A stretch of DNA of 64,000 nucleotides, taken from NCBI GenBank assembly GCA_946412355.1, contig CAMKGX010000003.1, forward strand, positions 1 through 64,000. The letters are read 5' to 3'. Positions 20,819-39,610 of this stretch are shown piece after piece; within the stretch, counting starts at the first letter, position 1; every line of letters begins with the position of its first letter. Source of the DNA: an uncultured Clostridia bacterium. Lineage in GTDB: Bacteria > Bacillota > Clostridia > Oscillospirales > Oscillospiraceae. The notes below the pieces were generated by a model that was not told the DNA's origin, did not search any database, and was given only the letters and a program-made list of their open reading frames with translations. The position numbers and the translations under genes were made by a program.

Positions 20819-20910
20819 GCAGTGGTATCGAAGTGGTCATAACGAGCACGACTGGAAATCGTGTTGCCGTCAAAAGCGGCACGAGGGTTCAAATCCCTCC
20901 CACTGCGCCA
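20819..20910 (+). tRNA. tRNA-Ser (anticodon GGA)
   Basis: A 92-nt class II tRNA. The acceptor stem GCAGTGG pairs with CCACTGC, then G and an encoded CCA. The anticodon arm is CACGA-CTGGAAA-TCGTG, giving GGA for Ser codon UCC. A long variable arm TGCCG/CGGCA is typical of Ser. The T arm is GAGGG-TTCAAAT-CCCTC. Confidence 0.96.
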
Positions 20911-20911
20911 G

Positions 20912-20941
20912 AAAAAACCTCGTCGAAAGACGAGGTTTTTT
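20912..20941 (+). terminator. Terminator of tRNA-Ser
   Basis: CCTCGTC-GAAA-GACGAGG with six A before and six T after. It begins 2 bp after the tRNA CCA end, and the hairpin array starts 2 bp after its T run. Confidence 0.93.
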
Positions 20942-20943
20942 CA

Positions 20944-21112
20944 GTTATATTCGCCTTCGGCGAGTGATATTGCTTCGCAGTGCTATTCGGCTTACAACCA
21001 GTGATATTGCGCTTCGCGCAGTTTTGAGGCGAATATAATATCACTGCGCCCCAGGCGCAATATAACTGTCCCGAAGGGACAATATAACTGCCGCCAAAGG
21101 CGGCAATCGCAC
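20944..21112. repeat. Variable-hairpin array 1 with inverted 7-bp linkers (solo copy)
   Basis: Linkers on the left are GTTATAT (20944), GTGATAT (20964), GTGCTAT (20980) and GTGATAT (21001). On the right they are the reverse complements ATATCAC (21038) and ATATAAC (21060, 21082), ending ATCGCAC (21106). Each linker is followed by a short perfect hairpin with a 3-nt loop and a different stem: TCGCC, TGC, TGCGC, TGCGCC, TGTCCC, TGCCGCC. One left unit (20987-21000) has lost its pairing. Left loops read TTC; right loops read CCA, GAA and AAA. There is no four-helix gene beside this copy. Long frames across it are artefacts. Confidence 0.8.
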
Positions 21113-21177
21113 TTGAAATTTCGTGAGTACGAATCCACTTGGCAAAAACGCCAATCCATCTTTTTCGTACCCTATTT
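21113..21177. other. Structured non-coding segment following array 1
   Basis: GTACGAA (21127) and TTCGTAC (21164) can pair around an inner stem TTGGC-N6-GCCAA, giving a hairpin with two internal loops. It directly follows array 1 and is followed by a terminator at 21180. It may be the end part of the same element or a small RNA. No credible reading frame is present. Confidence 0.4.
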
Positions 21178-21179
21178 CC

Positions 21180-21222
21180 AAAAAACACCGGAAGCAAGCG
21201 GCCTTCCGGTGTTTTTCTTTTT
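21180..21222. terminator. Bidirectional terminator after array 1
   Basis: AACACCGGAAG-N7-CTTCCGGTGTT (approximate loop), with A runs before and TTTCTTTTTC after. No plus-strand gene lies between it and the tRNA-Ser terminator, so it suggests that the array region itself is transcribed, or it is a leftover of a lost gene. Confidence 0.75.
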
Positions 21223-23283: not shown

Positions 23284-23302
23284 AATACACGAGAATAAAA
23301 GG

Positions 23303-23329
23303 AAAAGCAGCCCCCAAAGGGCTGCTTTT
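23303..23329. terminator. Bidirectional terminator between amylosucrase and four-helix-bundle genes
   Basis: AAAAGCAGCCC-N5-GGGCTGCTTTT. It has T runs on both strands and lies between convergent genes. Confidence 0.9.
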
Positions 23330-23336
23330 CTGCGTG

Positions 23337-23696
23337 TCAGTCATCGTTATCGTTTTGCTTCGCCGTGCGGCAAGAGGCCACCAGCATCACCCGTAGGGTA
23401 GCGCACTGCGTCTGCAGGGGCTGATAGGCGGCGTCGTCCAGGTAGCCCGTCCGGTGCAGCAGCTCCAGCCAGTAGCCGGTTTCACTGGCTTCCTTCAGCG
23501 CAATTTCCAGTTTGGAGATGAAGTCCCTTTTCCCCTGGGCGTACTTGGCTTCATAAATGTTGGCCCCAATGGAAGTGCCAGACCGCCCGATTTGATTGGC
23601 AATCACTGTTTCGTGTTTCGCTTTTAGCTCCTTGACAAGAGCAATGATTTGCACGGAGAAGGACATGGAGAGGTCGGCCAACTTGTTTTCACCCAT
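23337..23696 (-). CDS. Four-helix-bundle protein (TIGR02436, S23/Avd-like)
   Basis: A 119-residue helical protein of the family found in 23S rRNA intervening sequences (S23) and related to Avd, the accessory of diversity-generating retroelements. Family landmarks are ANQIGRSGTSIGANIYEA, FISKLEIALKEASETGYWL and LLHRTGYLD. Avd proteins form basic pentameric barrels that bind reverse transcriptase and RNA. No reverse transcriptase, variable gene or template repeat is in the window. The ATG at 23696 follows AAGGGGGCAG; the frame is open further upstream into the array. The gene lies 25 bp downstream, in its own direction, of hairpin array 2, and farther downstream of tRNA-Leu. Confidence 0.9.
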   Translation of the reverse strand: MGENKLADLSMSFSVQIIALVKELKAKHETVIANQIGRSGTSIGANIYEAKYAQGKRDFISKLEIALKEASETGYWLELLHRTGYLDDAAYQPLQTQCATLRVMLVASCRTAKQNDNDD

Positions 23697-23721
23697 AGGT
23701 CTGCCCCCTTCAAAGGAAAAA

Positions 23722-23898
23722 ATGATGTTTGCCCTGACGGGCAAGTGATGTTATGCCTGCGGCATAGTGATGTATGGCGGCGCTGCCGCCAAATGATGTG
23801 ATGTGTTCCGCCACACTTGCCGAAGGCAAACATCACGCCCGGAGGGCACATCACTTGGCGAAGCCAAACATCACGTTCCGCGGCAGCGGAACACATCG
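23722..23898. repeat. Variable-hairpin array 2 with inverted 7-bp linkers, beside the four-helix gene
   Basis: Left linkers are ATGATGT (23722), GTGATGT (23745, 23767) and ATGATGT/GTGATGT (23793-23804). Right linkers are ACATCAC (23830, 23848, 23868), ending ACATCG (23893). ACATCAC is the reverse complement of GTGATGT. Hairpins between linkers have unrelated stems: TTGCCC, TATGCC, TGGCGGC, then TTGCC, GCCC, TTGGC and GTTCCGC, each with 3-4 nt loops. The apex is GTGT-N6-ACAC. The folded form would be a long helix of paired linkers with hairpin side arms. On the minus strand it ends in ACATCATTTTTT, 25 bp before the four-helix start codon. Confidence 0.85.
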
Positions 23899-23900
23899 TT

Positions 23901-23940
23901 CAAGAAAGCCTCTTTTGCCAAAGCAAAAGAGGCTTTCTTG
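23901..23940 (-). terminator. Terminator of tRNA-Leu
   Basis: Perfect 18-bp arms (ending CTTTTGC / GCAAAAG) around a 4-nt loop, touching the tRNA CCA end. The array begins 2 bp beyond it, as at tRNA-Ser. Confidence 0.85.
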
Positions 23941-24027
23941 TGGTGCCGGTGACCGGACTCGAACCGGTACGCTGTCGCCAGCGGTGGATTTTGAGTCCAC
24001 TACGTCTACCAATTCCATCACACCGGC
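23941..24027 (-). tRNA. tRNA-Leu (anticodon CAA)
   Basis: An 87-nt class II tRNA. The acceptor stem GCCGGTG pairs with CACCGGC, then A and an encoded CCA. The anticodon arm is GTGGA-CTCAAAA-TCCAC, giving CAA for Leu codon UUG. A long variable arm and the T loop GTTCGAG are present. Confidence 0.96.
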
Positions 24028-39315: not shown

Positions 39316-39610
39316 AGGCAAGTACGCGCGGAAGAGGTGCTGCACACCCGGAAGCGTTTACACTGCGATGAACCGGGAGATTGCTCCGCAAGGAGGTAAC
39401 TTCCGGGGAGTATGTCCGATAATCGGGCGGCTGAGGATGTTCTGTTCGCCGGCGTAGATCGCCGCGCCAGAGCCACACCGGCCACGTCTGCGTGCCGGTG
39501 TTTCTTATGAGCCGGAATGATACGCACGGAACGGCGGATAGAGAGACCTCACCGTACGGAATTGGTCAAAGCAAACAAAACCGTACATTGAAGTAAGGAG
39601 TAAACAAGAA
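39316..39610 (+). promoter_or_regulatory. Long structured leader of the S10 ribosomal operon
   Basis: About 290 nt from promoter to rpsJ with no credible gene. A hairpin ACACCGGC-N11-GCCGGTGT followed by TTCTT (39472-39505) resembles an attenuator. An AAGGAGG lies at 39391 without a following frame of note. Autogenous control of the S10 operon by L4 is established in E. coli; by analogy this leader may sense a ribosomal protein (inference). Confidence 0.5.

Follow-up and report, generated by a model that had tools for sequence, protein, structure and literature searches.

A hairpin array with Gut-1-like halves behind tRNA-Leu: probable arms of a small mobile element related to 23S rRNA intervening sequences

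Closest described systems

Gut-1 is described as a probable noncoding RNA of human gut sequences only (PMC2864571, Weinberg et al. 2010), and the portion of that description available here contains no reference to mobility, an inverted second half, a tRNA site or a protein. The 64,000-nucleotide stretch of Clostridia DNA that was analysed (the window) contains a hairpin array at 23720..23898 on the minus strand, recognized by direct reading, linker statistics, a Gut-1 match per half and covariation. Gut-1 and this array share a build in which a repeated heptamer linker connects three hairpins, although the Rfam model of Gut-1 (RF01706) represents one half only (77 nt) and has the linker GTGAAAT, whereas the window linker is GTGATGT. 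Against this model the window array scored 39.0 bits at 23825-23901 on the minus strand (E 1.7e-6) and 36.5 bits at 23720-23804 on the plus strand (E 7.4e-6); both matches span the full model, 1-77, and lie under the gathering score of 50. Sibling arrays exceed that score (L174, 77.8 bits; L247, 68.7 bits; and L108, a gene-less array in the window's own genome, G000, 63.7 bits), and many elements have a Gut-1 match in each half, the two lying on opposite strands. Because such matches fill the array halves, Gut-1 looks like one arm of these elements, and this orphan Rfam family would gain a physical context as the arm of a mobile element.

The intervening sequences (IVSs) of 23S rRNA are described as selfish and sporadic, with complementary ends, and as replacing the hairpin loops of rRNA helices (PMC4990558, in the part available). 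They share with the window element the S23 protein (PF05635) and complementary ends that close a stem, which in the element belong to the array only. A further likeness is that IVSs sit in rRNA hairpin loops and one family of elements, in genome G061, sits in terminator loops. However, IVSs lie inside a 23S rRNA helix, whereas the window element lies behind tRNA-Leu, and the window gave no rRNA match at Rfam thresholds. The present elements also differ from IVSs in their tRNA, tmRNA or terminator sites, in their multi-hairpin heptamer-linked arrays, in their many gene-less copies, and in having both arms on one side of the gene. A Gut-1-type RNA is thereby linked to the S23/IVS protein family; among the matches listed from the open-licence literature, no report joins Gut-1, S23 and tRNA ends.

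The Avd protein of diversity-generating retroelements (4dwl, 8ube) has a four-helix fold in common with the S23 protein, a likeness by fold only, and the resemblance between PF05635 and Avd was noted previously (PMC10053308, in the part available). These retroelements need a reverse transcriptase, and no RVT_1 (PF00078) match was found in the whole G000 genome, which is 96.5% complete. The original prediction had stated that no reverse transcriptase is present, which this genome-wide result supports. Retrotransposition by a host reverse transcriptase is weakened for G000 by the same absence.

MITEs and other palindromic elements (RUP, ERIC and the RPE of Rickettsia) are likewise small, dispersed, non-autonomous and palindromic, and the Rickettsia RPE also enter RNA genes, tmRNA among them; unlike the present elements, RUP, ERIC and RPE are described, in the portion of the source available, without an array of distinct heptamer-linked hairpins, an S23 gene, or targeting of tRNA ends or terminator loops (PMC2229807). 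The array probably represents the two structured arms of a small, selfish mobile element that is related to IVSs in its protein and lifestyle.

The element behind tRNA-Leu and its array

The tRNA-Leu (CAA) gene occupies 23941..24027 on the minus strand, as determined by ARAGORN, Rfam and comparison with sister genomes, and the element starts directly after its encoded 3' CCA. The left end is a bidirectional terminator hairpin with a perfect 18-bp stem (23901..23940, minus strand), which stands between tRNA-Leu and the array and was not part of the original prediction. The array follows, and the right part is the TIGR02436/PF05635 gene (23337..23696, minus strand) for a 23S rRNA intervening-sequence protein (S23) of 119 aa, modelled as a four-helix bundle. 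With its own terminator, array and gene, the whole inserted element covers ~23338-23940, about 600 bp. Just beyond its right end lies another terminator (23302..23330, minus strand), which is probably the native tRNA-Leu terminator. Because the window copy sits behind the CCA and carries its own terminator, the tRNA would still be terminated.

When the tRNA-Leu loci of G160 and G164 were compared with the window by BLAST, homology ended at the tRNA end and restarted at 23337. Between these points, G160 and G164 have a different terminator, linker and TIGR02436 gene, plus a second gene behind the latter (L127 in G164, L128 in G160), which we take to be GNAT acetyltransferase-like. The tRNA-Leu inserts measure about 600 bp and 1.1 kb, no integrase was seen in them, and the site is known as replaced rather than as empty. 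An array was present at five loci (L125-L128, L138) out of 20 fetched for tRNA-Leu, a set that includes some loci of a different gene and one truncated locus. Reading by eye also revealed a small lipoprotein-like ORF in the element of L138 (G167), and the elements seem to pick up cargo, such as this ORF and the GNAT-like gene of L127/L128. Directly behind the TIGR02436 stop of L126 (G036), at the right end of the element, lies what we take to be an antisense group II intron-like sequence (by eye).

Read from the tRNA on the minus strand, the tRNA-side half of the array (~23812-23898) consists of the GATGTGTTCCGC hairpin and then the hairpins TTGGC, GCCC and TTGCC, linked by GTGATGT. The centre GCGGAACACATC (23800-23811) and ACATCAT come next, followed in the gene-side half (23720-23799) by the hairpins TGGCGGC, TATGCC and TTGCCC, joined by ACATCAC. 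Six T and then the RBS mark the gene-side end. Direct reading thus confirms what had been proposed for the layout: seven hairpins, near-constant heptamer linkers that invert at the centre, and an end in six T before the RBS on the gene strand. All seven stems are perfect, and the further proposal that they have no sequence in common is correct within one array, but stems recur between arrays. The pattern GTGATGT-N(8-30)-GTGATGT occurs four times in the window, always inside the array, against 0.01 expected (100 shuffles), and the RNA folding energy of both array strands lies far below that of dinucleotide shuffles (z -5.5 and -5.6; 0/200).

The RNAalifold consensus of nine arrays is a nested linker spine with side hairpins, which is the architecture originally predicted, with linkers pairing across the whole array and hairpins as side arms. 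In the nine-array alignment, 95.2% of the cells of the consensus spine are paired, against 20-59% in slid controls, a comparison in which the consensus has an advantage because it came from the same alignment as was scored. The covariation check suggested at that time gave a positive result, as the spine has 15 pairs with double changes versus 6.4 in shuffles, with 0/500 as high. The outer linkers pair in this fold as well (columns 5-10 with 159-164), which describes the array alone and not the array plus gene.

A feature absent from the original prediction is that the array's opening 12 nt (START, GATGTGTTCCGC, 23886..23897, minus strand) are the exact reverse complement of 23800..23811 (CENTRE, GCGGAACACATC, minus strand). 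START can pair either with its local partner in hairpin 1 or with CENTRE, so that two competing folds arise, and other arrays have START and CENTRE with other sequences. Because the Gut-1 model excludes the centre, Gut-1 hits provide an unbiased test of this pairing, whereas two earlier sets, picked on the START/CENTRE pair, were biased. After 30 of the 63 listed hits were dropped as near-duplicates or as having <50 nt behind them, a START complement of >=9 nt within 65 nt was found in 22 of the 33 non-redundant hits and was missing from the other 11; with shuffled partners, the mean was 2.1 and the maximum 7 (200 shuffles).

The hairpin loops were counted in 32 array rows, in which a few arrays are counted twice. 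In the left half (97 hairpins) the commonest loops are TTC (26) and TGC (11), and in the right half (89 hairpins) they are GAA (12) and AAA (10). The loops are therefore strand-mirrored between the halves, and the right half resembles the left half turned round. This pattern is compatible with RNA and with single-stranded DNA alike and does not decide between them. In DNA, triloops of the GNA type are highly stable. A comparison of G-U with A-C mismatches, as a test of the folded strand, met with very few mismatches in the arrays.

The mirrored loops would suit a purely DNA-level MITE, whose hairpins would work in single-stranded form, like those of IS200/IS605 or attC, and be moved by an HUH or tyrosine recombinase with the S23 protein as a passenger. 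The targets are palindromes, as this explanation would have it, and Y1_Tnp exceeds its cut-off in 7/8 array genomes. However, Y1_Tnp also does so in 5/14 controls, and G160 has arrays and no Y1_Tnp match. The element encodes no transposase, recombinase or reverse transcriptase, and no partner transposase was identified with the one family tried (Y1_Tnp). Furthermore, the passenger idea alone leaves unexplained the match between protein and linker that is described below, although joint inheritance could explain it. We consider movement of this kind a doubtful but serious alternative to the IVS-like element. A broken Y1_Tnp (IS200/IS605-type) gene was observed within ~300 bp of an array missing its start (L109; G000:C16:33704-34563).

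Copies, insertion sites and distribution

The window holds a second occupied site, at the tRNA-Ser (GGA) gene (20819..20910, plus strand). The element behind it is gene-less and 270 bp long (20911..21180, plus strand), with its own terminator, an array and a tail. The array (~20943-21114), also missing from the original prediction, is built alike with the linker GTGATAT / GTTATAT, and its Gut-1 match (20942-21012, 44.6 bits) is under the threshold. In G000 the site reads CTGCGCCA-(270 bp)-AAAAACACCGGAAGC, where a CCA also closes the insert and so stands at both junctions, whereas in G160, G164 and G036 it is empty and reads CTGCGCCA-AAA(A/G)ACACCGGAAGC. Filled and empty sites, as known for mobile elements, were thus found at tRNA-Ser, the sole site shown in both states at base level, in a comparison of the four closest genomes. 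A terminator hairpin of its own opens the insert, so that the native terminator has come to lie on the far side of the element. The tRNA-Ser search matched 31/32 genus genomes, and of the 20 loci fetched, two of them cut short by contig ends, an array was present at two (L145, L160).

The genome of the window contains at least 13 arrays and two TIGR02436 genes, each behind an array. A covariance model built from 12 arrays gave 14 matches in G000, which correspond to 13 arrays because the window array matched in both halves; Gut-1 gave 25 matches there, halves included. With the gene-less L012 as query, stretches 93, 91 and 85% identical were found at three other places in G000, the tRNA-Ser element included. 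In G061, roughly twelve copies, complete or partial, form a ~309-bp dispersed family, so that dispersed similar copies, another hallmark of mobile elements, are present in both genomes.

These numbers bear on the original prediction that the array is the upstream partner RNA of the gene. This idea finds no support, as arrays far outnumber genes in G000 and the unit is inserted at tRNA ends and terminators. A more specific version sees in the array a 5' leader on the TIGR02436 mRNA, through which the protein, by binding it, would regulate its own gene. It draws on the window, where the array runs right up to the RBS with no promoter-like site between array and gene, on the covarying fold, and on the agreement between protein clade and linker type. 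Against these points stand the surplus of arrays, the terminator that parts the array from the tRNA promoter, promoter-like hexamers between array and gene in L044 and L061 (by eye), and the filled and empty sites, which a leader leaves unexplained; a cis-regulatory role is therefore unlikely. In the best reading, an IVS-like mobile element with a Gut-1-like fold takes the place of a leader RNA as the functional frame, while the structural insight of the original prediction holds. Its suggestion of an RNA-protein partnership survives in part, since the association of arrays with the gene and the clade-linker match fit it, but the array is not mainly a gene leader.

Across 150 family genomes, 29/61 TIGR02436 matches have a same-strand tRNA <=900 nt upstream and 0/61 have one on the opposite strand, against a random expectation of 1-2%, which is a rough estimate and not a computed value. 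The remaining 32 matches are not behind a detected tRNA, some of them having little upstream sequence. Among 25 fetched array hits, hand-chosen from the covariance-model matches, eight are located 33-45 nt downstream of a tRNA or tmRNA (ARAGORN), and most of the others follow a hairpin with no tRNA call, partly because contigs end there. A 'type B' build was observed behind tRNAs at L028, L029, L033, L036, L168, L172 and L175; its START combines the tRNA CCA with the terminator's 5' arm, its CENTRE is the complement of this, TGG included, and its arms are TTCACTA-like heptamers.

The 3' ends of tRNA and tmRNA genes are classical attachment sites, and the arrays could accordingly be passive cargo left by larger integrative elements that use them. 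Consistent with this, an integrase-like region of L059 is followed by a 3' fragment of a tRNA and then the array, and the right end of L298 repeats 8 nt of the tRNA end (both by eye), which, like the CCA at both junctions at tRNA-Ser, is a possible target-site duplication. However, the inserts are only 270 bp, ~600 bp and 1.1 kb long with no integrase seen, and the G061 family occupies terminators of other genes, which makes this explanation improbable in comparison with an element that inserts in its own right.

In G061, the host flanks of complete copies pair as terminator stems, for example AACACAAAAATCCGCTGC - element - GCAGCGGATTTTTGTG in L253, which indicates that the element enters terminator loops. 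For eight complete copies, the summed duplex energy of their own flanks is -154.9, a value reached by 5/100000 random pairings, and the own flank pair is better than every swapped partner in 7/8 copies. The exception is one L247 copy, whose own flanks give -8.0 against a mean of -11.7 for others; in a first flank-pairing test with seven copies, L247 was also no better than swapped flanks. Flanks of the same kind were seen by eye at L290/L296 (G161) and L280/L281 (G160/G164).

Together, these comparisons show that the array is part of a multicopy insertion unit at tRNA/tmRNA 3' ends and, in another family, at terminator loops. Since it is an insertion and its spacers do not vary, readings of the array as CRISPR-like, TIGR-like or attC-like were set aside. 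The host would tolerate the insertion because the element closes up by folding, and two harmless routes can be envisaged, namely to carry its own terminator or to occupy a hairpin loop and fold shut.

The association of arrays with TIGR02436 genes, which had been proposed as a check across genomes, was found in the same 150 family genomes: 12/17 array genomes have a TIGR02436 match versus 25/133 others (p = 2.6e-5, an optimistic value because the genomes are related), and 5/17 array genomes have none. Reading by eye, which took in 21 of 25 named loci, found arrays in 20 of the 21, L062 being the one that lacks it. At the genus level, Gut-1 matches occur in 11/32 genomes, and at the phylum level in 3/299, G000 included, under stricter filters, so that hairpin arrays appear narrowly distributed; most of the genomes compared are draft assemblies, and the E. 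coli control gave a Gut-1 match under the cut-off.

This distribution also bears on a host function, by which the arrays would be 3' elements domesticated for stronger termination or for the processing of tRNA precursors. The frequent position of arrays behind a tRNA and terminator is in line with such a role. It is nevertheless very improbable, since arrays come and go among close relatives, different elements occur at one tRNA, and 21/32 genus genomes have no Gut-1 match.

The S23 protein and its linker heptamers

The window protein matches TIGR02436 with 101.9 bits (cut-off 24) and PF05635 with 91.5 bits (cut-off 33.8). Its most likely start is the ATG at 23696 (119 aa), because a start at the TTG at 23744 would reach into the array and most homologues in the alignment have their first Met close to this ATG. 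The AlphaFold2 model has four helices with a mean pLDDT of 86, and the best PDB matches by Foldseek are 2rld and 2gsc of the S23 family, followed by Avd 4dwl (TM 0.67 on query and 0.82 on target, Foldseek E 0.1, sequence identity 13%), so that the predicted Avd-like character of the protein is upheld at the level of the fold. Codon comparisons reveal purifying selection on the gene. Between the window and L043 there are 4 synonymous and 0 nonsynonymous changes, and the window and L044 give a dN/dS of 0.06, near saturation; among 10 pairs, two were informative (0.06, 0.11), one near-identical pair gave 0.26, and the remaining ones either were saturated or lacked synonymous changes.

Mapping the five linker types onto a tree of 29 labelled proteins takes 5 changes, where the minimum is 4 and the shuffled mean 18.0, with 0/200 as low. 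The 60 underlying loci were picked by hand and gave 59 usable rows, of which 29 were clearly labelled; among the 30 rows dropped as 'none' are some whose arrays can be seen but are degenerate (e.g., L063, L165), and type D pools GTGATAT/GTTATAT and CGATAT linkers, which form two clades. Two linker types coexist in several genomes (G000, A and D; G001, B and C; G107, A and B; G148, C and D; G149, A and D), which argues that the protein-linker match is not host phylogeny. The tree thus shows protein clade and linker heptamer inherited as one unit. The match is what specific recognition would give, and does not prove it. Of 15 G000 arrays, an incomplete list drawn from earlier hits, 13 belong to the two linker types for which G000 has a protein. 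The heptamer that changes with the protein clade is a likely partner of S23.

Within the proposed mobile element, the S23 protein would recognize the linker/hairpin fold, either as RNA or as single-stranded DNA, and may help the copying of the element into new hairpin sites. The element would be transcribed, and the gene-less copies would be served in trans, as MITEs are.

Inverted heptamers also accompany TIGR02436 genes in Cyanobacteria and Bacteroidota, where the gene lies between the arms, e.g., (AATTCGT)n / (ACGAATT)n at L101 (by eye). Similar loci are L102, L103 and L104; genes between such arms lie on plasmids of Nostoc, Aulosira and Bernardetia, and the arms are less regular at L100, L105 and L107 (all by eye). 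In contrast to the present arrays, these arms flank the gene, have no hairpins between the heptamers and are not behind tRNAs. Among the literature matches listed, no report ties heptamer-repeat arms to TIGR02436. It is possible, though this is a tentative proposal that goes well beyond the window, that all of these belong to a new class of mobile elements over several phyla, in which an Avd-like S23 four-helix ring, the sole protein of the element's own, is combined with inverted heptamer arms, developed in the present case into Gut-1 hairpin arrays, and each clade reads its own heptamer. Such elements would target nucleic-acid hairpins (rRNA loops, terminator loops, tRNA/tmRNA 3' ends) by START/CENTRE pairing with a host cutting/joining enzyme.

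The loci L098-L107 are plasmids plus one phage contig, and in some of them TIGR02436 lies inside defence or CRISPR gene clusters. The gene was observed between cas1 and cas2 (L105), between hsdS- and hsdR-type genes (L099), and between drmD and a pglX gene (L107). With regard to a defence role, PADLOC and PHROGs gave no match. Elsewhere in the window, at 39360-39430, Rfam detected an S10-Clostridia ribosomal protein leader with 41.4 bits.
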